From Bryopsis sp. KO-2023 (lineage: Eukaryota > Chlorophyta > Ulvophyceae > Bryopsidales > Bryopsidaceae): a DNA stretch of 64,000 bases. The stretch's first letter is position 1. Every line of letters begins with the position of its first letter. This document shows, piece after piece, positions 4,560-24,304 of this stretch. Position numbers and translations under genes: made by a program. Under the pieces are notes generated by a model that worked only from the letters and a program-made list of their open reading frames with translations, was not told the origin of the DNA and made no database searches. The stretch spans positions 1 through 64,000 of the forward strand of contig BSYQ01000001.1 of NCBI GenBank assembly GCA_030272585.1, read 5' to 3'.

Positions 4560-5165
4560 TTATAAAATTCTGTGGGGACAGTTTTCATTTTTCATTGGTT
4601 ACACTTCCTTTGCGCTGGTCGGCGCAGGTAACACTTGTGGAGGAGTCGAACCTCCGGTTTCGCCACTCAAGTGCGGGGTTTTTTTCGTTTTCTTGCACGC
4701 TGGTCGACTTTTTCTTAACATCTGTGGGGACAGCATCTCATTTTCGAAAGGTCACACTGTGGATTTGGTTTTTTTCGTCGACGCAGAGAACACTTGTGGA
4801 GGAGTCGAACCTCCGGTTTCGCCACTCAAGTGCGGGGTATTAACTTTTCTTTCACGCTGGTCGACTTTTTATTAACATCTGTGGGGACAGCATCTCATTT
4901 TCGAAAGGGTCCCACTGTGAATTTGGTTTTTCGTCGACGCAGAGGACACTTGTGGAGGAGTCGAACCTCCGGTTTAGCCACTCAAGTGCGGGGTATTTAC
5001 TTTTCTTTTACGCTGGTCGACTTTTTATTAACATCTGGGGGGACAGCATCTCATTTTCGAAAGGGTCCCACTGTGAATTTGGGTTTTCGTCAGTCGCTAC
5101 AGGAAACAGGGGAATCGAACCACTGGTTTCGCCATTCAAGTGGGGGGTCTTTTAGCGGGCCAGGT
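4560..5165 (-). repeat. 156-bp subtelomeric tandem repeat with tRNA T-arm-like hairpin
   Basis: Three good copies and one diverged copy of a roughly 156-bp unit. The anchor aggagtcgaacctcc falls at 4641, 4800 and 4956, with a diverged copy near 5110, giving spacings of about 159, 156 and 154. Read on the minus strand the anchor is GGAGGTTCGACTCCTCC, a five-pair stem around a TTCGACT loop, which is the layout of a tRNA T arm and a good Pol III B-box match. The rest of the unit is T-rich with ggtcgactttt and tctgtggggacagcatctc blocks. No full tRNA fold is evident. Any transcript driven by these boxes would run toward the telomere. Confidence 0.7.
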
Positions 5166-6914
5166 CGTTTGTCGATAGTTTCTGTCGGGTCGGTTTTTCA
5201 TTTTTCGAACGGGTTTTTTCATTATTTCATTCTCGTGAGACGGTTTTAGAGAGACGCGAGGGGATATTTTATCACCCATGGGTTCTTCTTACGAAGCTGG
5301 TGGTTCAGTCGACGTTCGGCGGGGTCGATACATACCTCCAGAGAAGAGAGGCTCTTTTCCTCAATCGATGGTCACACTTTCCATGAACAGGCCCACAGCT
5401 CTTCCAGCCACCAAGGACCCCACTCCAAGCTGCTCCATTCCTCCTGGATACAAAGGATCAGTTGCTCAATTTGGACCCACATCTGTTCAGCATCAAGCTT
5501 TGGGCACATCTGTTCACAACCTGTCCAGGACTCGAACCTGGCAACCCCCTATTGGGTCAGGATCTCTTGCTACTCAGGACCACACTCAAGAGGTTGCTGG
5601 ACAGGCTTGGACTACCGCTGATTGGGAGGATTATTATGATTGGTATGGGATATCATATCCAGTTGGTTTTTCGGAGGCTAATGTCAAGGATCACGTTCAC
5701 GATTCTGTTGGGCAGGCTGGGATTACCCCTGAGGGACACACAATGCAACAGTACCATCCACATCTCGATGCAGGATCCCTTATTGGACATTCACCAGGGC
5801 TGACCGAAGATGGAGACGAGCGTTTCTGTCCGGGATTAGATGAAATTGATTATTCGGATATTTACTATGCTCCCTCACCTGAAGAACTGCCTGATCCTGT
5901 CTCCACTGCTGCTCCTCCACCATGTGACGACCTTTCTATACTCAGTCCTTCTGGGAATCGAACCCAAGCATTTGGTCCCGACCAGGACTCTACTCAGGCA
6001 AATTCTGCTGGACATCAGACTGATCCAGAGGGAGTACAAGGGGGATCGAAAGGAGCAGACACTGATTACTCGGTTTATTGTTTTGGATCAACTGATGGGA
6101 GTCGCACCCAAGCTTTCGGCTCCAGCCAGGACCCTGGAGTAAAACATCTGATGGAATCTCTTCCCAAGGTGGTTGACTGTTTGAAAAAGTGTACTGAGAT
6201 GCTTTCTGAGGTTTTCCAAGGACTCACCGAGGGGATCATCCAGAATTCCATTGGCAGCAGCTGCAGCACCATTCCTGCTGCTCCCTTACCATGTGGGGAC
6301 CCTTCATTTCACAGTCCTCCTGGGAATCGAACCCAAACCTTCGGTTCCAACCAGGACCTTGGAGCCACACAGGTCCACCCTTCAGCTGAGGAGCTTTCTT
6401 CCACTCAGGAACTTCCTGGAACACACAAGGCAACACAACTTAACACACATGGACCACTGGCAGCATACTATGGATACAGTCGGCAATTATCGGCCTGCTA
6501 TAAATAGGTCTAAACGGGGTCGGATCGGGATCGGATTTTCACTAACGTCTATTACTAAGTGATACGAAAAAAGTCGGCTTTTTTCCAATTTTTTTTTTCC
6601 GATCATTATCGGCCCGATCATCGGAGATCGGCGCCATGATCGGACCGACTAATCGGGATCGGCGTCCGACCCGAATAAAGGTCGGCTCACCCGATCCCGA
6701 CCCCGATCCGATCTGACTTCGCGGCCGTGATCGGCAGGATCGGCCGATCAAAAAGTCGGTACGATCTTATGATCGGAGCGTTAGTCGGAGTCGTCCGATC
6801 ATGATCGGCATGAAAGGCGCGAAGTCGGTGAATTTGGGAATTTACCGATTTTATCGGATTTTCCGATCATCCACCGACCTCGATCCGATCATGATCGGAA
6901 TGTCGGGTGACGTA

Positions 6915-7025
6915 CAAAGTGACCCCCGCAAGGTCCCCAGAACCCAAGGGAACCGAATGGGATTCGAACACCGTACCACACGGTGTCGAACCATCTACAC
7001 TAAGCACTAAGCCAAGCGGACCACG
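6915..7025 (-). other. tRNA-like Pol III promoter module (family A, left arm)
   Basis: On the minus strand there is an A-box-like TGGCTTAGTGC (7004-7014) and a B-box-like sequence ending GTTCGAATCC (6960-6970), with a second GGTTCGACACC between them. A G/C-rich tail follows (GGGTTCTGGGGACCTTGCGG) that resembles the one in the CAGAGATAGG elements. The acceptor and T stems do not pair well, so this is not a functional tRNA gene. Confidence 0.55.
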
Positions 7026-7111
7026 ATGGATTCGTGGCTGTTGCAATAATATACCTTGATCTTTTTGTAATTCTGTAAAATTAGGGTATATTATTGCAAC
7101 CGCCACGATTC

Positions 7112-7225
7112 CATCGTGGTCCGCTTGGCTTAGTGCTTAGTGTAGATGGTTCGACACCGTGTGGTACGGTGTTCGAATCCCATTCGGTTCCCTTGGGTTC
7201 TGGGGACCTTGCGGGGGTCACTTTG
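7112..7225 (+). other. tRNA-like Pol III promoter module (family A, right arm)
   Basis: Mirror copy of the left-arm module, now on the plus strand: A-box-like TGGCTTAGTGC at 7126-7136 and B-box-like GTTCGAATCC at 7171-7180, followed by the G/C-rich tail to about 7221. The two head-to-head copies would transcribe outward from the hairpin loop. Confidence 0.55.
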
Positions 7226-7555
7226 TACGTCACCCGACATTCCGATCATGATCGGATCGGGGTCGGTGGATGATCGGAAAATCCGATAAAATCGGTAAAT
7301 TCCCGATCTGATCGGAAAACGCCGATCCCGATCCCGATCCGATCTGGTTTCAAAGGTAGAATTGGATGATCGGCCGTTACTTATCGGAAAAGTCGGACCG
7401 ATCTATTACAGTCGGGCCGATTATATCGGTACATCGGCGATGTCGGACCGAATTAGTCAGGCGCCGACAACATCGGCACTTTCTGAGGCCGACTTTTATC
7501 GGTTATCGGAAAAGTCGGACGCCGACATATCGGTGTCGGATCCATAGTATGACTG

Positions 7556-7745
7556 GCAGGCTATTCTTTTCAAGCAGACCTATTAATGGAGGAAGTGCAG
7601 GCCCATCTCAAGCTGGTTGGGCCACAGGAGGAAGCAAGGGGTTTTTCACCGACTGTTTTACCAAGGGGTTCATTGGCAGGTTATTCTTTTCAAGCAGACA
7701 TATTGATTAGGGAAGTGCAGGCCCATCTAAAGCTGTTTGGGCCAC
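7556..7745 (+). repeat. Direct repeat of about 70 bp, 120 bp apart
   Basis: The block ggcaggctattcttttcaag...cccatct.aagctg at 7556-7627 recurs at 7676-7745. It lies in the 3' part of the split ORF and encodes the duplicated LAGYSFQAD/VQAHLKL segment. The 120-bp spacing keeps frame. Confidence 0.8.
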
Positions 7746-8033
7746 TGGATGCACGCATTCGGAACTTCAATCGACAAAGGCGAAAGCAGGGTGCGACAGG
7801 ACGACAGCACAGGACTCACCCAACCTTATCAAGCGCCTGGCTTCGCCCTTTCACGCCGTGGGCTCCATGGACGGAGTCGTCATCACTGGATCTCGGAACC
7901 CGGGGTTTTTTCGACAGCCCTAGCTAGACTGACCCGCGCGCCCATTTGATGCGGACCTGTTGGGGACCCATCGCGGAGTGGGCCCTCTCCAATCGCTGGC
8001 TGCCCTTCCGACCTGGCGATTTTCCTCCACGAC

Positions 8034-8499
8034 CAGAGATAGGACTTTCCGGTTACGGTACCGTAAACCGTACCGTAACCCCACTCCGGTCACTTACGGT
8101 TACGGTAGTTACGGTCCGGACCGGAGTGGTTTTCGTGCTCGGAACCGGACCACCGTACCACTCCGTACTGCTCCGGTACCGGACCGTACCGACCGTAACC
8201 ACCGTACCAACCGTAAACCGTAAATAGTAACCCCCGCAGGGTCCCGAGAACCCAAAGGAACCCAGGGGGATTCGAACCCACGACCTTACAGACTACAGCC
8301 TAACGCTTTAGCACTGAACCACACTACTTCACGATGATTTAGGGGCTACCGTAGCTATACCGTACCTGTTCCGTACCGTAAAAACAACATATTACTCCGG
8401 TTACGGTACGGAGTTACGGCCGTAATACGGAACCGTAACTCGACCGTAACCGGACCGGACCGTAGCCGGACCAGAATTTTGGCCCAAGTCCTATCTCTG
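8034..8499. mobile_element. hAT-type MITE, family B, copy 1
   Basis: 466 bp with inverted termini CAGAGATAGGACTT / AAGTCCTATCTCTG and an exact 8-bp duplication tccacgac on both sides (8026-8033 and 8500-8507). The arms are dense in ACGGTTACGG/CCGGACCGTA repeats. The middle holds a tRNA-like module. It has the same length as copy 2 at 12593-13058 and differs from it at only a few bases, which points to recent movement. Confidence 0.92.
8227..8337 (-). other. tRNA-like module in family B MITE copy 1
   Basis: On the minus strand there is an A-box-like TGGTTCAGTGC (8311-8321), an anticodon-arm-like stretch with CTGTAGT, then GTGGGTTCGAATCCCCC (B box, about 8266-8280) and a G/C-rich tail TTCTCGGGACCCTGCGGGGG. 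The T arm pairs at four of five positions. No matching acceptor stem is seen, so it is tRNA-derived rather than a working tRNA. Confidence 0.6.
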
Positions 8500-8895
8500 T
8501 CCACGACCTCCTGGACTTTTTTGAGGCGCTGCAGATTCGAACTGCAGTTGGCCATTCGCCTCGTCGGGGGATTTTTGGTTTTGCTCGCCGGGAGTTTTTC
8601 TTTTCGATACGCACAGGGTGCTCGGTTCGCGGCTGCGACAGGGGTTTTTCCTTTGACTGGGGTTTTCCTTTTCGGTGGGTTACTTGATTCTCGCAGTTGC
8701 AGTCGATCGCAGGAAAGGGTTTTCAGTACGACACAGGGTTAGTCAAAGTGTGAGATTGAGGGGACTTTTCTGGTTCGCAGTTACGCAGTTTCGCAGAGGG
8801 ATTCACGTACGATTTGAGTACGATTTCGATTCGGGATTGATTGTACGCTTTCGACTGCGTTCTCAGAGATAGGAAGGACCTCACAAGCGTGTGAT

Positions 8896-9340
8896 TCTGA
8901 GCTCCTGCAAAAGGAGATTCAACAAAAAAAGCTCAAATCATAGAGGCCGAAGTGACAATATGGGAGAAAGACACACAAATTCTGTCGTTGGAAGAGAGGA
9001 ACAGGCTGCACATAAACGAAATCGAAAAGAAGAATGATGAACTCCGCTTGTTAGAAGAAAAGAACAAAGCAATGGAAGAGGAGCTCGAAAAGAAGGACGA
9101 GGAAACACAGAAAATGGGTGTGTTCAGTTCTTATTGAAGTTTTTTTGTTTAATTTTTTTCAATTTTTTTCAATAATTTCTTGGCTAATAATCTATATTTT
9201 TTTAATCAGAACGTGTGGCCAGGTCTTACTTTCAGGTATGTGTCTTTGATTTCTTGTTTTTCAATTTTTTCGTTTTTTCGTTTTTTTTTAATTATTTGAT
9301 TATGTTATAGGAGAATTGTGATGCGGAACTTATGGATGAT
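8896..9340 (+). pseudogene. Coiled-coil protein fragment with two introns
   Basis: About 8900-9116 encodes a Glu/Lys-rich coiled coil (EIEKKNDELRLLEEKNKAMEEELEKK). A consensus donor lies at 9117. T-rich introns at about 9117-9210 and 9235-9310 surround a 24-bp exon, and a third exon starts near 9311. No ATG opens the frame. Upstream coiled-coil coding continues in another frame (KEIQQKK), with a shift around the A-run at 8924-8930 and a stop just after. This suggests a gene remnant or a 5'-truncated gene. The family is not identifiable. Confidence 0.35.
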
Positions 9341-10987
9341 GTAAAGTCGGTTTTTTTTTTTTTTTTTTGGTTTAAACGTCGATTTTTGAAAAACATCATC
9401 GACACTTGATCTCCAAGATCTCGGCGAAGTAATGCTGTTCAAATCCCCCCCCCCCCTCCGAAATTCAATAATATTGTGCCTGCCCGCAACATCATGCCAC
9501 CATGGATTTAAACCTCTCAAGAAGTCATTTCCTTTTGATTCAACCCGTTCCCCTCACTCAAACTTCCAAACAATTTGATGTTTCAATCCTTCCTATATGT
9601 TCAGGCAAACTTTCAATATGACTCTTTCGAATAGTGAATGCTGTGAGCACCTCATCACACTTTATCCATCATATTTGAAGATGGCCTCTTCTCCAATTTC
9701 TGCTCGCCGGTGCACGAGTGAGCGACAAATCATTTTTGCGAAAGGGAGTGCAATCATCACCGCCCCACAAAGGCGAGGGGGCATTCGCTAATATCTTGCA
9801 CACAATTGCATTCCCCAAAGCATGTAGAACCACGTTCCCTTTTGTATCATGTTATGTGTGGGTGATCACCCGCACACAACGCCACATAGAGGAACCACCT
9901 CTATGAGAGCATCCTCATCCTGCATCCAGTCATATATTTTTCTCAGAGATTGGTGTGTACTTTTGCGAGAAGAGCATCCAAACAACGTCACAAACAGGAG
10001 GTTAATCTGAGCTGTGGAAACCTTGCATATCGGTGCCTTTCTCATCCGGACGTAGTTTTGAACGACTTGTATATCTGCGTTTCTGTTGTGGCCGCTGATC
10101 TGGACTATTCATTCAAACATGTGTTCGGTACGCGGGACAACAGTTTCTGGGTCGGTACATTCAAGGTTCCAACGTTCCAAAGTGCCTGAGCCGTGCGATG
10201 TCCAGGAGACCCAAGAGATGGATCGAACTGCACTGTGGCGGCTGAGGCGTTGTCTTTACTCGCTTTTGGACATTCACTAATTGATTCACGAACCTGGAAC
10301 ACTATTGAGGTCGAAAACAGCGTGTAAAAGAAAAAAATTCGAACAATGATGGTGTGGGTAAAAGAGGCGACTTCACCAGACCCTGAAGTCTCGGTCGAAC
10401 GGAGATGGGATTCAAACTCGAAAGACCAAGAGGTTTCCTTGCGTTCCCGTCTCTGCAAGCCGTTCAAAATAGTGGGGGAGGGAGCCGAACCCTGGCTGTC
10501 ATGACTCATGATGTCCAGGTTTCGTGAGCGTTTCCACCCCACTTGCGTTCAGAGTGCAAGCTGATCGAGCTCCCATTGTGTCCTCAGCAAGGACGGGACA
10601 TACTAGCCCAGTAGGTCTCTGCAAACGCTAGGACTTGGTACAGATCCTGTTGATCATGGATCGATCCGGCATTTCACATGTCATGTCGTGTAGGGTCCCT
10701 CCCTCCGCTCGAAGGAGACAAAACTCTCTCACCAACGACTTCAGTTGTGGAGCAGTCGAACGCCTCGACAATGCCACCTCGTCAAAGCCAGGCCACGCGA
10801 GGTAAATGTTGCTCTTTTTTTCCTTTTGAGAAAACGAAACGTGGAACGTTGCTAGCTGTGTGGCTGGTGTGGCTGCTATGACACCTCCTACTGCCGCTTT
10901 TTTCGCAGGATCGCGCTCTTCAAGCACGGAAGATCAGATTCAGGCGCTCGAGGTGCTTCATTACTCGCGTTAAGAGTTATTGTCACA
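9341..10987. other. No gene recognised
   Basis: Contains a poly-T run (about 9350-9368), a C-run near 9448 and scattered antisense B-box-like words (for example ccgaaccctgg near 10486 and cagtcgaacg near 10752). Short open frames overlap on both strands with no recognisable domain. I see nothing here I would call a gene. Confidence 0.4.
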
Positions 10988-12592
10988 GCTGCGAGCATAC
11001 TATGGATCCGATCACGATCTAATCGGTCGTGGATTGATCGGTCCGACCGATTAGATCGTGATCGGGTTTTTCCGATCAGATCGATCGCCGATCAAATCGG
11101 TTTGGCCGATCATCGATGGAGATCGGCCGATCACCAATCTGATCGTCTGACCGATGAAATCGGCCGACTATGAACGGCCGATCACGATCACACCGACCAA
11201 CATCGGCCGATCAAGCGCCGACAGGGCGAGGCGCTTGATCGTGATCGTGGTCGTGATCGGTTGCGCCGTTCAAAGTCGGTTCGCGCCGATTATGATCGGC
11301 GCAAGGCCGATTATGATCGGCCCCTCGTTACGTAGCCGCATCTGGTCATGCTTGGCGCCGGTGGTTACTCACGGTCTGTTCGTACACGGATTCTGTTCCC
11401 ATCAACACCTTATACTGCTTAGGTCACCTCGTGGCCACTCGCGACGTGGAAAATGGTTCGGCATGGAAAGGGAAAAGCGCGCGTTACTGCCCCAAAACAG
11501 CTGCACCGTATCTTCGGACCACAGAGGCGGAGTGGATCTGGAACCGGATCTGCGGAGGGTTTGGGAAGTCGTCCTGAGGGCAGCGTTCCATCCGTGGAGC
11601 AACAGGGCTCAGGGCGAACGTCCGACCCCGAAAACAGTGCGTTACTCCAATTTCTGAGCTGGTGTGTTGCTTTGTTTTCAACCTGGTCACTGGAGGTGAC
11701 TGCCTTGTGCAACTGACTCAGCTAGGGGGGTGGGTGAAGTGTTTGTGCTGCCCTGCAGTGATGGGATCTGGTACAATTCAGACACTGCTGATTGCAGATG
11801 TGAATCCAGATGGTGGGAAGCAGGGTAATACCTGGGTTGATCCGATGTTTGTGACAAATGAAGCTGGAAAGCTGATGCTGTTCAAGGATCAACGTAACAA
11901 GACTGTTGTATCATGCAGAATCTGTGGTGACAACCTTGTATATATCAAGGGTGGCAGGATCCCACTTGTCAACCATGCAGCCAAACATGGTATCAGAAGC
12001 AGCACTGAACTGGACCTGGCTGTTAGTGTTGGCTTCGATGTTTATCGAGCACAAGTTGTAGAGCATGAGGAAAGGAATCAGAAACGGAGCCGACAGGGGG
12101 AAAAGATCATATCGTTTGGGAAGCAAAAAACCCTGACATACGTCTCAAAATGGGGGGCCACTTCCCGGGAGTTCAAACAGTATCGGGACAAGGTGATGTG
12201 CTTTGTGGTCAGTACTGGGGCACCGTTCAGAATCGTGGAAGACGACCACTTTCGCAAACTCTGCAGCCAACTGAACGCATCTGCTCCGGCTCTGTCGGCC
12301 AAATCCATGTCCCATTGTGTTGGTCAGGCTGCCAAGGATCTGAGGAAGAAGTTGCAGGAACTGAATCTGACCAGATTCAGACCCTGTTTTGTTGCTGATG
12401 GGTGGTCCCAGCAACACAAGCACTGGCTTGCCATGGGCGCCGTGTATATCCACCGGGATCTGGAACGGGACATGTTCGAACTGAAGCGGATCAGCCTCGG
12501 CACCTGGGAGATGAACGGAACTGCAACTGCTAAGATGATCTGCCAAAAAATGAACGAAATCAGGAAGGAGTTCAATCTGGATCAGTATCGGG

Positions 12593-13058
12593 CAGAGATA
12601 GGACTTTCCGGTTACGGTACCGTAAACCGTACCGTAACCCCACTCCGGTCACTTACGGTTACGGTAGTTACGGTCCGGACCGGAGTGGTTTTCGTGCTCG
12701 GAACCGGACCACCGTACCACTCCGTACTGCTCCGGTACCGGACCGTACCGACCGTAACCACCGTACCAACCGTAAACCGTAAATAGTAACCCCCGCAGGG
12801 TCCCGAGAACCCAAAGGAACCCAGGGGGATTCGAACCCACGACCTTACAGGCTACAGCCTAACGCTTTAGCACCGAACCACACTACTTCACGATGATTTA
12901 GGGGCTACCGTAGCTATACCGTACCTGTTCCGTACCGTAAAAACAACATATTACTCCGGTTACGGTACGGAGTTACGGCCGTAATACGGAACCGTAACTC
13001 GACCGTAACCGGACCGGACCGTAGCCGGACCAGAATTTTGGCCCAAGTCCTATCTCTG
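12593..13058. mobile_element. hAT-type MITE, family B, copy 2 (inside the hAT transposase)
   Basis: 466 bp, termini CAGAGATAGGACTT / AAGTCCTATCTCTG, exact 8-bp duplication gtatcggg at 12585-12592 and 13059-13066. Nearly identical to copy 1 at 8034-8499. Deleting the MITE plus one duplication rejoins the transposase codons in frame (DQYRA to SIVTD), so the insertion happened into a gene that was still readable there. Confidence 0.95.
12786..12896 (-). other. tRNA-like module in family B MITE copy 2
   Basis: Same module as in copy 1, offset by 4,559 bp: B-box-like GGGTTCGAATCCC at about 12825-12839 and A-box-like TGGTTCGGTGC at 12870-12880 on the minus strand. The two base differences from copy 1 fall in this module (gactac/ggctac and actgaa/accgaa). 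Confidence 0.6.
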
Positions 13059-14639
13059 GTATCGGGCCAGCATAGTCACAGATCATGAGGCCAGGATGGG
13101 TCTCGCTTGCGAGCAGAAGAATCTGTACGACTGGCACGGATGCGGAACCCATCGGATCAACCTCGGTGTCAAGAAAGCCTTCAAGCACGCCCCAACTGAT
13201 CTGAGCAATTTAGTGACCAGGGTACACGACATCTGCAGGACCGTCATGGGTGCCTCCACTCATTGGGAAAAGCTGAAGGAGTTTCAGATCAATCGGGTGG
13301 GGAAAGAACGAGCTGAACAGGAAGCACAACGTGCCCAGGCTGCCCGCCAATTGGTGGCTGATCAGATCGCTTCATCGACGGGTGCCTCAGGGGTAGGCAT
13401 CAGCATGGTTGATCAGACCCTGCCTGTAGATTTAGAGGAGGAGGTTCAGATTGTGGATGCTCCAGAAGAGGAGGCTAATGAGAACGAAGACCTGAGTCAG
13501 GAGCAAGCTGACCAAACAGCACCTGACCGGATGTATTCAAGCGATGAAGAACCTTGTCCCGACGATCTGGATGATGTGGAGGAACCTGCCGACTGCCCTG
13601 GACCTGTTCGGAGATCACAGAAAGTGCTGAGACTGACCTTGGAAGTGGAGACCCGCTGGAATTCAACCTGGTATATGATACATCGGTTTCTGATCCTGAA
13701 ACCTGATTTGATCAAGCTCCTTGAACTCCTTCCCCCCAATACATGCTCAGCTCTGAAGACTGGAGTACCCTGCTGGAATTGTACCACACTCTGAAGGCGT
13801 ACAAGGAAGCCACGAAAGTATTGGAGGCAGAAAAAAAGGTTACGGGCAGTGCCGTTCTGATGCTCATGGCCCGGATCAGTGCTGCGGTAGACGCCATGGT
13901 GTTTCAGGATCAAAATGTGACAGCCTTTCGGGACAAACTCCGCACCTTCATGGACAAGGAATTCGATGACCCCGAATGGCTCCTGGCAGTGGGGTGCATG
14001 CAGCATCTGGATCCGACCCGCCTGGCACTGGACGACCCTGAGCTGACTCGGTATCTGTGGGGATCCCGGGGAGCCTTTCCAAAACTGGTGCACCAATATC
14101 CCAGGCCTGATCAGTGGGTTGCAGATGTGCTGAAGGAGTGCGTGCACCTGATGGAGGAATACCAGGGCAGATCAGAAAACAACCCAACAGTTCCCCCTCA
14201 CCGCGAACGAGGAGATCGAAGGAAAAAAAAGAAAAGTGAGAATCCAGAACGGGACTGGCTGAGTGTGTGTCCTCCTCCTTCTGGTCCGGGCGGTTCTTTG
14301 TCTGAGGAGTGGAACAGATTTTGTGGGGTGAGAAGAGTGATTCAAAGTACTGCATCTGTTCTGGATTGGTGGAGGGTACACCAAATTGTGTTCCCAACAG
14401 TTTCGGCGCTGGCTGCAGAATGCCTCTGCATCCCTGCCTCCAGCGCCTCTGTTGAGCGGATGTTCAGTGTGAATGGACATCAGCTCAACAAGCGCAGGAG
14501 GCAGATGGAGGTGTCCAAAGTGCGGGATCTGACCTTGATCCGGGACAATCTGCATATGCTCAGTCAATGATCTGTTCTGTCCTGTTTTGCCTAGGTTCTT
14601 CTTGGATGGGTGGGTGCTGGGTATACATGTTCTGATATG

Positions 14640-14885
14640 TTCTGCTGACCTGTTTTTTTTTGATATGTTGTGTTTTTTTTGATATGTTGTGTTTTTTTTG
14701 ATATGATGTTTTTTTTTTTATATGATCTGGCCTTTTTTTTTTTTTTGATATGATCTGGCCTGTTTTTTTTTTTGCTATGATCTGGCCTGTTTTTTTTTTT
14801 GCTATGATCTGGCCTGTTTTTTTTTTTGATATGATCTGGCCTGTTTTTTTTTTGGATATGATCTGGCCTGTTTTTTTTGGAGATG
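14640..14885 (+). repeat. T-rich tandem repeat
   Basis: About eight copies of TGATATG(ATCTGGCCTG) followed by runs of 8-14 T. It lies between the convergent transposase and minus-strand gene of the hAT element and could act as a bidirectional 3' end region. The open frames through it are repeat artefacts. Confidence 0.75.
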
Positions 14886-14905
14886 TAAACAAGATTTCAG
14901 AACTT

Positions 14906-15180
14906 CAAAAGTGTCTTAACATTTATGAATCATTTCCAAGTTGGAAATTCCAACCCTTAAGACTCCAAAACACATAACTCAGGGCTGAGCAGCAAATAAT
15001 CAGAAAACATTCTTACACCAAAGCCCATAAGTCCATACAATCCAAAAGTGTCTTAACATTTATGAATCATTTCCAAGTTGGAAATTCCAACCCTTAAGAC
15101 TCCAAAACACATAACTCAGGGCTGAGCAGCAAATAATCAGAAAACATTCTTACACCAAAGCCCATAAGTCCATACAATCC
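14906..15180 (+). repeat. 137-bp tandem duplication
   Basis: The segment starting near caaaagtgtcttaac at 14906 is repeated with a period of 137 bp from 15043, essentially without change, so the duplication is recent. It lies inside the hAT element and has no coding signal. Confidence 0.85.
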
Positions 15181-15942
15181 AAGCACTTGACCACCGAACA
15201 AAACAGAAATGTGGCTCATAAGATCACCATGTTCATTACAACTCCTGTGCACAAAAAAACTGAACAGATCCTCAGAAAAAAAAGCACGGCAGCTCCAGAA
15301 AACAGACGAATCAAAAACAGCGTCAAATTCAAAACCCAATCAGTTGTGAAGGTCCAGATAAGATAAGATCAGGTCAGGTTTGGGGTTCACCATTGGTTGG
15401 GGGGAGGAGATAAGATAAGATCAGATCAGGTTTGGGGTTCACCATTGGCTGGGGGGAGGCTCCTGCTCCTCATGGAGCGGACCACCTGGAAAAACACCTC
15501 TGACCCGATACACGACACTCTTGTCTGCAGGACGGTTCGCAAAATGTACGGGTCCAGTGTCGAGATCACGCCAAACCTGATACACGGATACTGTGCAGAA
15601 ACAATGCTTCTCGGAGCCTGTGGAGGCTGTATGAGTTCTCCAGATACACATTCTGAATAAATTGAAGAAGGTCACTGTTGCTGGCGAAGGTGATGGGGAA
15701 CTGAACCTGATAGTCTGGGAAAAAGGCGTACTCGGTAACGATCTGCATCCGTTCCCTCTGCGCTGATCTGTGCTGCTCCCTGCTCCGATCTGACATGACC
15801 CGGATCATCGTCCTTCCTCTTCTGACCGGGTACCCGTAGTCGTCTTTTTCGCACTGATGCCCATCGAAGTCCATCGGCCAACGGGTCATGTGTTCAGGTC
15901 TGGGGTCTGCAGGCCTGGTTCCGATCGGATCTGCACCACCTC

Positions 15943-16095
15943 CCCATCCTTGGTCACCACCCCCGCCAAACTCTGCACCACCTCCCCATCCTTGGTCACC
16001 ACCCCCGCCAAACTCTGCACCACCTCTCCATCCTTGCTCACCACCCTCGCCAAACTCTGCACCTCCTCTCCATCCTTGCTCACCACCCCCGCCAA
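15943..16095 (-). repeat. 42-bp coding minisatellite (14-residue Gly-rich repeat)
   Basis: About three and a half copies of a 42-bp unit (aaactctgcaccacctcccc...), which on the minus strand encodes the 14-residue Gly/Trp-rich repeat of the accessory gene. Unit length is a multiple of three, so copy-number change keeps frame. Confidence 0.8.
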
Positions 16096-16129
16096 ACTCC
16101 CATCCTGGGCGGGTGGCTCGGGCCAGACC

Positions 16130-16372
16130 AGGTCGGATCATGTTTGGGGGGGGTCCTCAGGCCTGACCAGGTCGGATCATGTTTGGGGGGGGTCCTCGGG
16201 CCTGACCAGGTCGGATCATGTTTGGGGGGGGTCCTCGGGCCTGACCAGGTCGGATCATGTTTGGGGGGGGTCCTCGGGCCTGATCAAGTCGGATCATGTT
16301 TGGGGGGGGTCCTCGGGGCTGACCAGGTCGGATCATGTTTGGGAGGGGTCCTTGGGGCTGACCAGGTGGAGG
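16130..16372 (-). repeat. 39-bp coding minisatellite (13-residue Pro-rich repeat)
   Basis: Six copies of a 39-bp unit (tcggatcatgtttggggggg...). Minus-strand translation is GPPPNMIRPGQAR repeated. The repeats are very similar, so expansion is recent. The copy nearest 16159 carries the CGA-to-TGA stop. Confidence 0.85.
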
Positions 16373-16805
16373 GCCCCTACCACCTACGCAGGTGACTTTA
16401 GGTTCAAGTTCATCAGGTTCAGTCCAGGGGTTGGACATTTCAGGTTCGATCCCCGATCCACTGCCTTCTCCGACTTTTGGTTCATATGCAGTCCACCACT
16501 CTTCACTCTCTGAATATGAATACGGGTTTGTCCATTAGCAACAACAATACCAAAAGCAACATAATGCCTCAGGGGCCACTAATGTTACAAACAACTCCAC
16601 ACCTGTGTCGGCAGGTGCTTTAGGTGCTTCAGGTGCTTCAGGTGCTTTAGGTGCTTTAGGTGCTTCTACTTGCAGGTCCAGTTGGAATGTGCTGCTCAGT
16701 CGCAGATCCTTCAGGTGCATGGCATCCACCTCTTGTCGGATCTGATCCAGATGCCCCAACAGCCCATTTTCCCGGAGCAGTTCTACAGAAAAAAACATGC
16801 AAATA

Positions 16806-17212
16806 TTTTGGGGAAAACAGAAACAGGAAATACAACAACAATTCCAGTTCCTGATCCACAAATTTTTTGGGGAAAACATAAACAGGAAATACAACAACAA
16901 TTCCAGTTCCTGATCCACAAATTTTTTGGGGAAAACAGAAACAGGAAATACAACAACAATTCCAGTTCCTGATCCACAAATTTTTTGGGGAAAACATAAA
17001 CAGGAAATACAACAACAATTCCAGTTCCTGATCCACAAATTTTTTGGGGAAAACAGAAACAGGAAATACAACAACAATTCCAGTTCCTGATCCACAAATT
17101 TTTTGGGGAAAACAGATACAGGAAATACAACAACAATTCCAGTTCCTGATCCACAAATTTTTTGGGGAAAACAGATACAGGAAATACAACAACAATTCCA
17201 GTTCCTGATTCA
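16806..17212 (-). repeat. 59-bp minisatellite filling an intron of the accessory gene
   Basis: Seven near-identical 59-bp units (attttttggggaaaacagaa...) occupy almost all of the 428-bp intron between exons 2 and 3. Because 59 is not a multiple of three, long open frames appear in several frames. These are artefacts of the repeat. The donor (17220) and acceptor (16783) lie just outside the array. Confidence 0.85.
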
Positions 17213-18289
17213 CTTCTCACCAGTTGGAACGCTATAAGGGTAGGCCGGGTCCTGGTTTAGAAGCGTGACATCCCTCGAGCGGACCAGACCGGGTGGTAAC
17301 ACAGTGATTTTGTCGAGAATCCGGTCCACAGCACGCACTGGAGGGCTCATCTCTGCGTGGGCTCGGAGCAGGAACTCGGCGTGGTAGTCGTCACCCAGGG
17401 CGGAGTCCAGAGCACTTGCAGCCCTCAGAAAAGGTCCCTGTCAAAAAAAAACAGATACAGTTAAAACAAACCCTAGAGCGGCTAGCAACAAATTAGCGAC
17501 ATATGCTTACCAATCTGAGACCGAAGTGGAGCCGGAGTGTGAGCAGGTGCAGGTAAATCTGTTCGACATCTTCGTTGCGGATACGAAAGCCGACGGGAAA
17601 GCACAAATCAGGTCTGCGCTCAATCGCTTTCACGTACGACCGCGCTTTCAGGTCAACGGAGGACATTTTAGCAGCGGCCAGCTCAGGCCAGGGGCTCAGT
17701 CTGGTGGTGGCGGGACAAATAACAAAAAAATAAACGCACGAAATAACAAAAGGAACGGAGCGGGTGGTGAAGTCTGCGAGAGCAGGTGGATATATTCGAG
17801 ACCCACGCAGCTACGACACGTCCTGACTAACGCTTGATTTGATCGGCGGTGATGATCGGTTTCATCCCTGGCGGACCGACTACATCGGCAAACCGCATTG
17901 ATGTGACGATCAACCGATCATGATCGGACCTGCACCCGATCAGGCTCGGCCGATCACGATCACACCGTTCAAACACGGCCGATCAAGTGTCGACAGGGTG
18001 GGGTGTTTGATCGTGATCGTGATCGTGAACGGTTTCGCCGATTTAATCGGTGGTCGGTGAACCGATCACGATCACGATCAACATGTGATCGGACGATCAA
18101 GAGCACGATCAACATTTGATCGGCCGATCACGATCACGATCACCGATCAGCCAAAAATGGAAAAAAAAAAAAAAAAACCGATCATTACTAATATCCGTTC
18201 TAGGACGCGGTTATCAAGTCGGATCACTGGTCCGACCTGGTATGACCTTGGTTTTCGAAGATCGATCAGATCCATAGTATGGCTGCGAG

Positions 18290-18580
18290 GGAAAGGGGGT
18301 GGAGCACACTAGGTGCACAGGGTACAGGAGGAGGGCGTAGGAGAACTTAGAATATTGATTACACAAAGAAAGCAATTCAGGTAGTCATCTTTTACCCGGA
18401 TCAGCAGTTGATGAAATCAGGTGGGGCAAGTATCTCACACCCAAAGAGGCTAAACAATCAGTTACCAGCTTACAAGAGATATTGCTCAGCTCAGGCCGGT
18501 ATGATATTCCATGTCTGTGTCAAGATGAGGAAAATTCACATCCCCCAGCTGTCAAAAACTTTTGCTCAGTGTTGAGAGTT
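18290..18580. other. No gene recognised
   Basis: Flank of the hAT element. The exact target duplication ends at 18289. No convincing coding or repeat signal. Confidence 0.4.
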
Positions 18581-18581
18581 C

Positions 18582-18740
18582 CGAATTAAAGACTGGAAGA
18601 TGGTTGTGTATTTTTTCATGTGCAAGGATGAGGGAGTGCACACCAGCAAATATGGGGATTATCATGTAACCTATGATTTTGTCTTCCACCAGGATGGGAA
18701 AATCACAGGATAAGCCACAGACAAGGATGGTTGCTTTGAG
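18582..18740 (+). pseudogene. Possible NTF2/SnoaL-like protein remnant
   Basis: One frame reads WKMVVYFFMCKDEGVHTSK, then YHVTYDFVFHQDGKITG, a stop, then ATDKDGCFE. The alternating aromatic/hydrophobic pattern ending in DGKI-x-G resembles the strand-rich C-terminus of NTF2-like folds. It is short, has an in-frame TAA, and the assignment is weak. Confidence 0.25.
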
Positions 18741-18897
18741 GTATAGTAGACGCCGCTTTATTAACCCCATTCGGGACACGCCTTTTCGGGCTAATAAAGC
18801 AATTGGTTAACAATCCGATGTCCGACATTTCCCCTCTCCCAGACGCGCACGCATTCGAATCAAACTGTAAAAAACTCGTAAAAAGTGGCCTGGCAGT

Positions 18898-19580
18898 CAG
18901 ACCTGGGCCCGACCGGACCGGCAGCGAAAAACCGGTCCGGTCCGGTCCAACCTGTCCATGGACCGGCTGACCTGTCCGGTCCAGCGAAAAAACGCCTGTC
19001 CTTGCAAGACCGGACAGGTTGTGACCTGTCCGGTCCTGTCCACTCCGGTCCAGTCAACCTCGGAAATCTGCAGAAATCTGGACCGGTTTTCTGACAGATT
19101 TTCCGTTTTTAGACAGGTCACACCCACATTTCGCCTTTATTAGACCGGCGATGTGACCTGTCTAAAACCGGAACGACCCTGTCTTGACAGGGTTGTTCTC
19201 CTGTTTTAGACCGGCTCCAGGTCGGTCTGGACAGGTGGGCTGCCTGTCCAGACCGACCTGGAGCCTGTCTAGAACAGGTCGCACAATTAAGCACTTTTAA
19301 CGTGCTAATTGTGTATCAATCGATTGGGAACTGATTCAATGGATTAAAGAACAAAGTATTATTTATTATATGCATTTTTAATGCATGAATGACGTGAGCC
19401 AAGCCCACCAGCCACCGACTAGAGGGAGTCGGTCGACTCAAGGAGGATTCGAACCCGGGTTGGCTAAGCCCGAGTCGAAGGCACTAGTGATAGTGGACCC
19501 CACCACAGGGACGCTCAAAAGGGGGCCGTTATTTTTAAGTACCCGTTAAAAACGGTCCAACGGGTCGGCGCCCAGGTCTG
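18898..19580. mobile_element. hAT-like element, family C, with GACCTGTCC/GGACAGG palindromic arms
   Basis: 683 bp. The left end CAGACCTGGGCCCGACC matches the reverse complement of the right end GGTCGGCGCCCAGGTCTG with one extra base. The left arm is dense in GACCGGACAGG-type repeats, and the right part carries a tRNA-like block. The flanking octamers differ (ctggcagt and ctcgtcac), so no target duplication is present. The two ends may come from different insertions joined by deletion, or the boundaries may be slightly off. Confidence 0.55.
19436..19515 (-). other. tRNA-like block in the family C element
   Basis: On the minus strand CCCGGGTTCGAATCCTCC (19442-19459) is a strong B-box/T-arm match. 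Upstream lies an arm-like CCTTCGACTCGGGCTTAGCC stretch. No clear A box or acceptor stem. Unlike the family A and B modules it lacks the shared G/C-rich tail. Confidence 0.45.
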
Positions 19581-21039
19581 CTCGTCACCTCGTATCAGTC
19601 CCTATCCGAAATTACTTCACCCGGAACCCCGTGCTGGCGCACAATATGTTGCAAAAACAAAGAAACCAACCCCTTTGAACTCAACGAAACCGAACAAGGA
19701 ATAAAATGCCCAAATTTCGTGAGCGATCAATCACGACCACCACACAGTCCGGGTCAAATGCCTTTCATGATCCGCTGGGTTATCCGAAAAAACTAAAATA
19801 TCATCAATCAAATGAATGCAGAATTCGTCCAAAAAATCCCTTAATAATTCGGTAGTAAACTTCTGAAATTCCGGAGGCCCATTACACAGGCCAAATGGTA
19901 AAACCCTCCATTGGAACTGCCCATAACGACAATTAAACGCTGTAACCGGCCTACTTTCTGGGTGCACCGGAACCTGATGAAAACCATGCCTAAGGTCTAG
20001 CTTACTAAAAAGCTTTTTCCCTCTCAACCTATCAAGCATCTCTGGAATATTTGGAAGTGGATAAGTACTTCGCATAGTTTATGCATTCACCCGACGATAA
20101 TCAATGCGAGGTCTCAACGTATTGTCCCCTTTTTTCACGAATAGACATGGTGATCCCCACTCCGAACGAGATGGCTCAATATAGCCCAATTTTGTGTACT
20201 CTTCCAAAGATTCTTTCAGTACCTTTAACTCCCGATCAGTCATCTTGTAAGGACTTCGAAAATGAGCCTTAACACCTGAAACAAGCCGAATCCGATAGAA
20301 TGGTCGCAAAGTCTGGTCAGGATCCGTCGGCGGGCTAGGCATAACTTCACCTTTCCCTATCATCAAATTCTGATATCTAGCCATGATTCTGTCCCTTCTT
20401 TTAACCAATTCAGGAGATAAGTCCTGTGTTGCCTGCAAGGTTCCCCCTAATTCGATATTTTCCAATTCCAACATTTCCTCTAATGTCAAAACATGCAAAT
20501 CAGGTGTCCCATCTGCCACAGAAGATTTCTCTCCTTCCAACACTGAAATTAATCCCCCCATTCCCCCACTCTGGTCCATAAAACCTGTCCACTTTTTGAA
20601 AGAGATAGGACCTAAAGAAAGAGGCCCTGGATCAGTTCCCAGCTGTTCCATAACTTCCAAACCATGTGATCCTGGACTCCATCCACCTAAGGTGGGAATA
20701 ATCACCCTCTCTGTGCCAGCCAAAATCGAAACTCTCTTATCAGGGGTCTGTCCATAGTCTATTCTGCACTGATTATCTTGCAGCCAGGTACCCCCCAAAA
20801 TCAGATCAAATCTGCCTAATGGAAACACTCTGCACTGCAAAGAACCCACAAAATCTCCAAGCCGTAAACTGTCAAAATCCACCATTTGATCACTCACTGT
20901 TGGATCCCCATTTGCCAATCTCACAGATACAGGTGCACAGTCCCTGGTAGAAATTCTGTGACTCACACACCACTCTTCTTTCACAAAATTCTCAGAAGCC
21001 CCTGTATCCAATAATCCCTGAATTTGTTTGCCCTGTAGT

Positions 21040-21503
21040 CAGTGATAGGACTTTACGGTTACGGTCACCGTAACCGTACCGTAACGCCGTAACCGGACCG
21101 TAACCGGAGTACAATTTTCGTCGGAAAATCGTACTTTTACGGCCGTAACCGTAGCTCCGTACCGCTCCGTACCGCTCCGTACCGGACCGTAATGACCGTA
21201 ACGACCGTACCAACCGTAAACCGTAGAAAGTGACCCCCGCGGGGTCCCGCGATTCCAAAGGAACCCAGGGGGATTCGAACCTGCGACCCTACAGACTGCA
21301 GCCTAACGCTTTAACACTGAACCACACTACTTCACGATGATTTAGGGCCTGCCGTAGCTATACCGTACCTGTTCCGTACCGTAAAAACAGCATATTACTC
21401 CGGTTACGGTACGGAATTACGGCCGTAGTACGGTGACCGTAACCCGACCGTAACCGGACCGGACCGGAGCCGGACCAAAAAATCGGCCCAAGTCCTATCT
21501 CTG
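21040..21503. mobile_element. hAT-type MITE, family B, copy 3 (inside Gypsy pol)
   Basis: 464 bp. Left end CAGTGATAGGACTT (one mismatch to the family), right end AAGTCCTATCTCTG, exact 8-bp duplication cctgtagt at 21032-21039 and 21504-21511. More diverged from copies 1 and 2 than they are from each other, so it is older or from another sublineage. The arms again consist of ACGGTTACGG-type repeats. Confidence 0.93.
21224..21343 (-). other. tRNA-like module in family B MITE copy 3
   Basis: On the minus strand: A-box-like TGGTTCAGTGTT (21312-21323), then GGCTGCAGTCTG, then AGGTTCGAATCCCCC (B box about 21267-21281) and the G/C-rich tail. The anticodon-like loop reads CTGCAGT here and CTGTAGT in copy 1. 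CTGCA-x with this context is reminiscent of tRNA-Cys(GCA), but this is only a resemblance. Confidence 0.55.
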
Positions 21504-23411: not shown

Positions 23412-23921
23412 CAGGCCACTTTATTTCGGGCACACGCCCGAAACACCAAAAATAGCTTATTTTGGGCCTCAGCCCAACCTTATTTTGGGCTTATTTTGGG
23501 TAATCTTTTTCCTTCTCAAATTACGTCAATAGGATTAGCTCAGCACAACATATATTGTATCTAGTGTAATTTTTTGTGCGTATTAAGTATTGCTTGGGTT
23601 TATTTTCTGCATGGACTGATTTTTGCCATCCAATCAGATTGCAAAAGTTAGTCCAGGGAAAAAATTAGGCATTCGCAGAAGCAAAGCAATGCACAAATAA
23701 TGCACAAAAAAATGTGTTCAAAACAAATCAGCGACTGTTGTCGACACAAAAAATCTGAAAGCAAGCCTGAACTCATCCCGCCCCTTGTGTCGGACTACAA
23801 CCCCAAGTCTTCAAACTCGCCAAAACATTGTGGATCCTCCCCATGCTAATTTCACACCACAATAGGGAGCTTCTTTGCTTTCGTTGGGAATTCTACGCAT
23901 TCTACGCATATAATCATATTC

Positions 23922-23965
<44 letters not shown>

Positions 23966-24304
23966 ATTGGTGAAATTTCTGTGTGGGCTCATCCGATGAG
24001 CCGACGAGTCGTTCGCGGTGCTTTAGTTTTTCGAGCACAATTTTTTACATTTTTTTCCAAAAAAAATTAGTTCAAGGCAAGAATTACCTTATATAAGGTA
24101 CTAACAACGAATGCACACACACAAAAAATCCTGAAGTGAAAATCTGTCCTGAGATGGCCATATCCAACTCAGATGTGACAGTGTTAATCATATTATTAGA
24201 GTACATCTCCAAAAAAATTGAAGTTAATTTTGGGCACGGCCGCAAACCTTATTTCGGGCGCATGTGCCCAAAAAATCGTAAAATGCCCGAAATAAAGTGG
24301 CCTG
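23412..24304. mobile_element. hAT-like non-autonomous element, family D, GCCCGAAATAA arms
   Basis: 893 bp, starts CAGGCCACTTTATTTCGGGC and ends with its reverse complement, with an exact 8-bp duplication cccatcgg at 23404-23411 and 24305-24312. Subterminal repeats of TTTTGGGC/TTTCGGGC occur on both sides. The interior has no ORF of note and includes a (GT)n tract. It carries no obvious tRNA-like module, unlike families A to C. Confidence 0.9.
23923..23964. repeat. (GT)21 microsatellite
   Basis: Uninterrupted GT dinucleotide repeat inside the family D element. Confidence 0.95.

Follow-up and report, generated by a model that had tools for sequence, protein, structure and literature searches.

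A tRNA-derived, promoter-like cassette shared by non-autonomous hAT elements of several families in Bryopsis

The window analysed here is a stretch of 64,000 nucleotides of Bryopsis sp. KO-2023 (contig BSYQ01000001.1, positions 1 to 64,000). A non-autonomous hAT element of family A (subtype A1, 1088 bp) lies at 6464–7551, bounded by identical 12-bp ends (CATACTATGGAT) and an exact 8-bp target site duplication (TSD, ACTGGCAG). When 40 of 640 candidates were scored, the element matched 9 genomic places at 94–100% identity and 23 at 80–82%. Its centre is a near-perfect palindrome (arms 6836–7063 and 7077–7304, 97%), meaning that family A carries two modules, not one. They are arranged head to head in a 325-bp palindromic core (6908–7232) that is also present in family D. 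The left module (6908–7055, minus strand) shows a TATA-like GGTATA (7050–7055), an A-box-like TGGCTTAGTG (7005–7014), a B box TGTTCGAATCC (6960–6970) and a G/C tail extending to 6908. The right module (7085–7232, plus strand) has a TATA-like motif at 7085–7090, an A-box-like motif at 7126–7135, a B box at 7170–7180 and a G/C tail extending to 7232.

A family B non-autonomous hAT element with matching ends was identified at 8034–8499 (466 bp, TSD TCCACGAC). Its module (8227–8361, minus strand) consists of a TATA-like motif (8356–8361), AAATCATCGTG (8330–8340), an A-box-like motif (8312–8321), a B box (8268–8278) and a tail to 8227. The 33 fetched 466-bp B elements have a mean identity of 99.6%, most of them having been fetched for an identical module. 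Another family B element (12593–13058, TSD GTATCGGG, module 12786–12920 on the minus strand) is nested in a long family A element, and a B2 subtype, 82% identical to B1, occupies 21040–21503 (TSD CCTGTAGT, module 21231–21364 on the minus strand). The three related G/C tails that a sequence-only reading had pointed out in A1, B1 and B2 are indeed at these places, the third at 21230.

The long family A element (10996–18281, 7.3 kb, TSD GCTGCGAG) is of the autonomous type. It contains a hAT transposase frame on the plus strand (13725–14570), the C-terminal part with the dimerisation region PF05699 (E 5.2e-16, 58.7 bits, cut-off 21.4), and its reading frame is broken by the nested B element. The earlier claim that this copy lacks the module is correct as far as a module of its own is concerned, but one is present inside the nested element. 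A second copy at another locus (L069), 98.7–98.9% identical over the two longest aligned pieces, contains neither the nested B element nor a module site. In the window elements of families A and B and in the long element, the 12-bp ends match with 0–1 mismatch and the 8-bp duplications are exact. The family C element (18898–19580) has matching ends (CAGACCTGGGC) and no target duplication in its flanks (CTGGCAGT/CTCGTCAC). As noticed before, it bears a tRNA-like block (19381–19525, minus strand, B box 19445–19455) with a tail differing from that of the other families; its likeness to A, B and D is confined to the B box, and one module common to C and A/B/D was rejected on this ground. The C B-box segment has 236 genomic sites, many among those listed being inverted pairs about 185 bp apart.

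Together, 61 distinct module-bearing elements with 60 distinct TSDs were collected, matching ends and an exact 8-bp TSD both being required for inclusion. PF05699 was searched in the genome and 150 of 150 scored matches, out of 185 candidates, lay above the cut-off. Comparison with autonomous copies gave 93.6% over 250 bp for A2 and L091, 77% over 306 bp for A1 and L092, and 89% over 142 bp for B2 and L093 (99% over the last 105). The left end of L093, an autonomous B element, was not found, and family D had no autonomous partner among the six autonomous-type copies read. Both arms of a further family added here, E, come from the 7.3-kb element of the window and surround a diverged core: the E element at L111 is made of the right end of the long element (82–89%), a 365-bp core and its left end (85%). 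These results show that end sequences derive from autonomous hATs of the same genome, at both ends for E and, for each of A1, A2 and B2, at a single end. The short elements are thus hAT elements by their 8-bp TSDs, their short TIRs, arms of an autonomous partner and the PF05699 transposase of that partner. Six autonomous-type copies (10996–18281 of the window, L069, L090, L091, L092 and the B-type L093), with far ends partly cut, carry no module of their own, which supports the earlier proposal that the short elements acquired it. Two short TSD-flanked candidates (23412–24304 in the window and 2467–2848 of L052) have no B box, indicating that the cassette is not universal.

In order to evaluate how far the modules are alike, those of A and B were aligned. 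They are 85% identical over a common 59-nt stretch (81% with the B copy at 21 kb). For the 3' halves, the alignment score lies 16 SD above that of dinucleotide shuffles, none of 200 reaching it, whereas the likeness of the 5' (A-box) halves is at the level of shuffles (28 of 200 equally good). The proposed relationship consequently holds for the B box and the tail and not for the 5' A-box halves. Element ends, TSDs and module alignments confirm that A, B and, newly, D share one module although the arms of these families are unrelated. Family D, also added here, has arms unlike those of A, with no match between the two, around the same core of two head-to-head modules. This 325-bp core (TGACGTACAAAGTGACC...GGTCACTTTGTACGTCA) is 87.7–98.5% identical among A1, A2, D1, D2 and D3. 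The presence of the same core between unrelated arms indicates that cassettes moved between hAT families. The A2 core is 96.0% identical to that of D1 but 87.7% to that of A1, the D1 and D2 cores share 93.5%, and the element at L008 has A1 arms around an A2/D-type core. No branch set the three D cores apart from the others in any of 200 bootstrap trees (0%), and the strongest branches of the core tree require just one change. This conflict between core tree and arms indicates that cores were exchanged between elements. The layout is an outward-pointing head-to-head pair in A, D and E, a pair of another cassette in C, and a single module in B.

ARAGORN found no tRNA in the window or in L001, L044, L019, L052 and L094–L113, and a search of the C module and of one module each of A and B with RF00005 gave no match at E ≤ 10; other Rfam matches, far below gathering scores, were disregarded. 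The possibility that the module is a tRNA gene was rejected because ARAGORN and Rfam do not recognise a cloverleaf. The B module resembles genomic tRNAs (z 7–12). Of 8630 first-look candidates for tRNA-model matches, 63 were scored and 14 fetched as the comparison set, and the tRNA comparison is incomplete since the nuclear-looking ones were of Lys and Ile types only. The test proposed with the sequence-only reading, whether modules align better to genomic tRNAs than to each other, came out in its favor: the A–B score was 82, against best scores of 30 and 43 to the 14 fetched matches. Heads of E and B modules are also alike (z 13), possibly because they stem from one tRNA and not because the module itself is shared.

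Folding of module RNAs was not clearly better than that of shuffles (z -2.05, -0.79, 0.22, -1.10 and -0.15), and 3 of 26 pairs of the predicted fold had changes on both sides, a weak support. One alternative considered is an RNA-processing signal, in which the tRNA-like part would be an RNase P/Z cleavage site in a longer element transcript. Numerous tRNA-like structures that combine a T-arm with an acceptor do exist in the genome and are possibly such sites. Nevertheless, we regard this explanation as highly improbable, given that the T-arms of two B modules of the window (8276, 12835) have no perfect acceptor helix, that none of the eight E and B-like sites examined (7 E-module sites and one B-like site, L127) beat shuffles at 0.05, and that covariance searches of A, B and C modules gave no tRNA match.

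tRNA-derived SINEs have a tRNA-like head with A and B boxes and a separate 3' tail, and a fungal example has reportedly been published. The Bryopsis modules likewise have a tRNA-like head, with a strong B box and a variable A box, and a separate 3' tail; however, they sit within hAT ends and TSDs, and the A-rich or simple-repeat 3' end of a SINE is absent, the tail joining the hAT arm directly. With up to 3 mismatches allowed, the genome contains 594 matches to the tail pattern (reversed pattern, 0). The first 30 listed places, perfect matches on contig C1 and therefore under-sampling diverged copies, are all inside hAT arms, 5 of them without an exact TSD. B-type tail junctions number 483; the hAT-junction patterns amount to 207 + 483 versus 594 tail sites and are not paired one to one. 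After masking A, B and D, no free-standing module remained in 282 kb of loci (overlaps included). The term SINE-type unit thus found no support in the sampled places, as neither the 30 sites, the junction counts nor the masked loci yielded a free-standing copy, and tail counts, junction counts and masked loci revealed no SINE source family. The perfect B box GGTTCGANTCCC occurs 2176 times in the genome (reversed control, 56). Separately, a B-box scan revealed tRNA-like structures in the subtelomere, and these led to MALAT1-like structures (an A-tract with a tRNA-like structure) elsewhere in the genome; the contrast with a T-tract control was less sharp for them than expected.

The modules display Pol III-type motifs: a strong B box, a variable A box and a TATA-like GTATA. 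Among 18 half modules from 11 elements, which are related by descent, 9 of 10 B-box columns and 6 of 9 tail-core columns are invariant, compared with 16 of 108 in the remainder, 1 of 11 in the A-box block and 2 of 5 in the TATA block of the alignment. GTATA lies 83–86 nt upstream of the B box in 18/18 half modules, possibly by chance in B, whose arms are rich in CGGTA. As D1, D2 and B1 have no TTTT between the B box and the element end, the sequence does not clearly define a Pol III transcript, and T-run depletion in the arms followed no clear pattern. That several modules lack a downstream T-run and that the B box, not the A box, is the best-conserved motif would suit a TFIIIC-bound boundary element, in which TFIIIC brought in by the B box would not start productive transcription but protect the element against silencing. 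At extra-TFIIIC (ETC) sites, too, a B box is conserved although no functional tRNA gene is present; the Bryopsis modules differ in being carried by transposons and in having a TATA-like motif. The nearly fixed distance of this motif in all 18 half modules points to transcription, making a boundary function improbable.

Non-autonomous hAT elements and MITEs (Ds-like) have 8-bp TSDs, short TIRs, arms of autonomous hATs, no coding capacity and many copies. The Bryopsis elements share all these features and differ by their conserved tRNA-derived promoter-like core, either a passenger common to the families or an internal promoter of small RNAs. As a passenger, it would be a tRNA-derived piece (gene fragment or SINE) caught by gap repair in an internally deleted hAT, now only a filler of suitable length between two arms that spreads because its carriers are good substrates, and its sharing between families would reflect chance recombination. 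The ordinary RNA folds, the non-conserved A box and the short TSD-flanked elements without B box are all consistent with this, as is MER6/MER6A, a mammalian mariner MITE carrying a V-SINE (PMC6887750). A SINE inside a MITE had already been published, whereas the sequence-only reading, made without a search, knew of no named system of this kind. Both cases combine a non-autonomous DNA transposon with an interior missing from the autonomous parent, SINE-derived in MER6/MER6A. As described there (PMC6887750), the latter is one Tc1/mariner lineage with one capture and has a SINE source, whereas Bryopsis has several hAT families, paired outward modules and exchange, with no SINE source found in its genome. 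Passive cargo appears somewhat unlikely because B box and tail core are nearly invariant across lineages that differ in other columns, and because hAT families differ in which cassette, that of A/D-B-E type or that of C type, occupies their centre, with outward pairs present in A, D, E and C.

We therefore favor, with a probability of about one half and from sequence comparison, the reading that non-autonomous hATs carry a tRNA-derived Pol III promoter cassette that may help them out-copy cassette-free elements. TFIIIC would bind the B box and Pol III would transcribe outward from the cassette into the arms. The resulting open state with bound Pol III could keep the element accessible to transposase acting in trans, and cassette-bearing elements would out-copy the others. 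Once an element has been excised, ectopic recombination or gap repair between cassettes would be the most likely route of exchange. A broader version is tentative: several hAT families might depend on swappable outward-firing Pol III cassettes, Pol III activity would be a selected trait of hAT parasitism, and A, D, B and E would share parts of one lineage while C took another independently. If the cassette is active, cut-and-paste parasites would have repeatedly taken up a Pol III promoter, linking the chromatin state of tRNA-like sites to DNA transposition. Should the cassette be passive, the occurrence of one core between unrelated ends would still directly show the assembly of non-autonomous elements from parts and provide a clean system for testing gap-repair models.

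The window forms one end of contig C1 of the assembly (91.1 Mb, 28 contigs), and CCCTAAA telomere-type repeats make up its first 3.9 kb. In a short family A element (6464–7551), three family B elements (8034–8499, 12593–13058 and 21040–21503) and the autonomous-type long A element (10996–18281), the 12-bp ends match each other and the flanking 8-bp target duplications are exact; the long A element encodes the hAT dimerisation region PF05699 (E 5.2e-16). In the loci examined, 61 distinct elements bearing the tRNA-like module are flanked by exact 8-bp duplications, 60 of which differ; the elements comprise 50 of B type, 8 of A and 3 of D, and are no random sample, because an exact duplication was required and the loci were mostly chosen for holding the module. 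Family D is new and has ends CAGAGCTGGG or one mismatch from it. Mean identity is 99.6% among 33 B elements of 466 bp, a sign of recent spread that is tempered by most of them having been chosen for an identical module. At locus L054, a B element (948–1412) is nested inside a second one (832–1770), with exact TSDs on both. Two short TSD-flanked hAT-like candidates without a B box were also seen, at 23412–24304 of the window (ends CAGGCCACTTTA) and at L052 2467–2848 (ends CAGTCATGGGCT).

The sequence-only reading had placed one and the same tRNA-like module in families A and B. This holds for the part from the B box to the G/C tail, where 59 nt are common to both at 85% identity and local alignment of the 3′ halves scores 16 SD above dinucleotide shuffles (0/200 as good), but not for the 5′ halves, which show no likeness in local alignment (28/200 shuffles as good). 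An 11-nt 5′ flank, AAATCATCGTG, is also common to D and B. Genome-wide, the tail pattern has 594 matches with at most 3 mismatches versus 0 for the reversed pattern, and tail junctions number 207 with A/D-type and 483 with B-type sequence; these are separate pattern totals, with places not paired one to one, and the junctions exceed 594 because the patterns differ. Each of the first 30 tail places listed, which are perfect matches located on C1 throughout, falls within A, B or D arms, the aligned stretch of arm being 234 nt or longer. An exact TSD is listed under its own locus for 17 of them; 8 of the other 13 are repeat views of elements that appear elsewhere in the list, and five (L047, L051, L057, L059 and L060) showed no exact TSD. 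When A, B and D were masked in 282 kb of loci and window (overlaps included), only C copies, weak matches and a 25-nt fragment adjoining a B insertion were left.

The two modules of A form a head-to-head palindrome. The core of D, the element centre that holds the modules, matches that of subtype A1 at 90% over 333 nt; its arms do not match A and bear a faint likeness to B arms (about 71–72% over 49–58 nt). Core identities are 96.0% for A2 and D1, 93.5% for D1 and D2 and 87.7% for A2 and A1, and A1 and A2, compared as whole elements, share 79.4% identity. The tree built from 18 cores has a branch (support 100/99) with 7 A1 cores on one side and, on the other, 7 A2 cores, 3 D cores and that of L008, whose arms are of the A1 type. 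Of 200 bootstrap trees, 0% set the D cores apart from the rest by a single branch. These sequences are most simply explained if families have exchanged cores, and the strongest branches of the tree, taken alone, force only one change.

The claim that the 7.3-kb autonomous A copy lacks the module was borne out: the nested B element apart, it has none of its own, and none was found in the autonomous-like elements L069, L090, L091 and L092 (A-type) or L093 (B-type), most though not all of each having been read. L069 is 98.7–98.9% identical to the long A element over the two longest aligned pieces and lacks the nested B element. Neither the C block nor the core of E had a match in those autonomous-type elements searched. 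Family E, which was found by sampling perfect B boxes, makes derivation from an autonomous element explicit at the sequence level. In its member L111 (103–1073, 971 bp, TSD GTATTTCC), the left arm corresponds to the right end of the long A element (82–89%), the right arm to its left end (85%), and the centre is a 365-bp core absent from it. Likewise, A2 matches L091 (93.6% over 250 bp), A1 matches L092 (77% over 306 bp) and B2 matches L093 (89% over 142 bp, 99% over the last 105); no autonomous D was present among the loci read. A second, repeat-rich open frame lies opposite the transposase strand in A-type autonomous elements (L090 5045–6457, L091 4894–6027 and window 15566–16156, all on the minus strand).

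Kinship with tRNAs, as the sequence-only reading had it, is clear for the B module (z 7–12 against genomic tRNAs) and weak for those of A, C, D and E (best z about 3–5), the comparison set being 14 tRNA-model hits, some on small, possibly organellar contigs. Detectors gave nothing: ARAGORN found zero tRNAs in the window or the module loci submitted, and searches of B, A and C modules with the Rfam tRNA model gave no match at a cut-off as loose as E≤10. The perfect B box GGTTCGANTCCC occurs 2176 times in the genome versus 56 for the reversed pattern. We aligned half modules, 18 in all, drawn from 11 elements (A1, A2, D1, D2, E1–3, B1–3 and L127). GTATA lies 83–86 nt upstream of the B box in 18/18; invariant columns amount to 9/10 in the B box, 6/9 in the tail core and 16/108 in the remainder, and the A-box block is poorly kept (1/11). 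Since the rows share descent, the Fisher value on column conservation is a rough guide only. The heads of E and B are alike (z 13, 0/300 shuffles as good) but those of E and A1 only weakly so (2/300); heads and tails therefore look like separately inherited parts, unless the heads derive from similar tRNAs.

The tRNA-like block reported for family C is present in the window copy, which holds one, but its kinship with the other modules is limited to the B box, and it is therefore best seen, from its sequence, as a different cassette that takes up the equivalent position. The B-box segment of C occurs at 236 sites in the genome versus 0 in the control; many sites among the matches listed are inverted pairs about 185 bp apart, and L019 has such a pair within C arms.

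Other tRNA-like structures were observed. A MALAT1/NEAT1-like anatomy (a run of at least 8 A, an acceptor-like strand, a D-arm-like hairpin and a T-arm GGTTCGANTCC, the anticodon arm being absent) occurs genome-wide, for example at L105 and L119 (C1:2.51–2.54 Mb), L115 (C1:1268937), L128 (C1:5244613) and L106 (C1:2699785). The pattern A8-N15-45-GGTTCGANTCC has 107 matches versus 2 reversed (61 distinct places among the matches listed); with T8 replacing A8, the control has 90 versus 3 (34 distinct places, a single tandem cluster accounting for 12). Among 26 distinct strings, 21 have a D-like hairpin containing GG (13.9 on average and at most 20 in 200 rounds of shuffling) and 13 have ATGGG. 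The 3′ acceptor strand pairs better than 95% of shuffles at 3/6 A-run loci read (L105, L106 and L119) and not at L128, L103 and L115. By eye, two U-rich stretches precede the A-run in L105, L119, L115 and L128, as in an ENE triple helix. The part of PMC12941219 covered calls NEAT1 and MALAT1 the sole lncRNAs matured by tRNA machinery. Several repeat families (e.g. L099, L100, L101, L118 and L094) have an acceptor helix and T-arm, with D and anticodon arms absent. Acceptor pairing reached p≤0.05 against shuffled upstream sequence at 19/42 sampled B-box sites (40 loci, L094–L133, contig C1), counts that include 8 hAT-module sites and treat same-family copies as separate. Subtelomeric repeats of the window (4600–6400 and 8541, minus strand) place a T-arm-like GGTTCGANTCC between complementary arms; five T-arms with a perfect 6-bp acceptor (three being one tandem repeat's copies) compare with 0 in each of 6 shuffles, and those at 5536, 5962 and 6331 are antisense to a 422-aa open frame (5239–6507). 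On C5 (2.78–3.77 Mb), equal-score tRNA matches cluster at ~3-kb spacing, the single copy read (L076) being tRNA-Ile TAT, and the small contigs C28 (91,672 bp) and C27 (356,152 bp) have tRNAs of apparently organellar look, which would point to a host with plastids.

Sequence comparison establishes that the short elements carry autonomous hAT ends (D excepted), that their central cassette is absent from the autonomous elements read, that one core sits between unrelated arms and that the modules are oriented outwards. Against a Pol III promoter in the cassette stand the variable A box, the ordinary RNA folding of the modules, the lack, in D1, D2 and B1, of a T-run ahead of the element end, and the two short TSD-flanked candidates that have no B box. 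In the open-access titles and starts of abstracts listed for hAT, MITE, SINE and tRNA-like parts, hAT families sharing a tRNA-derived core were not described; the one close precedent found there is MER6, a mariner MITE carrying a V-SINE according to the part of PMC6887750 covered. The cassette is a putative Pol III promoter, whose activity would favour transposition.
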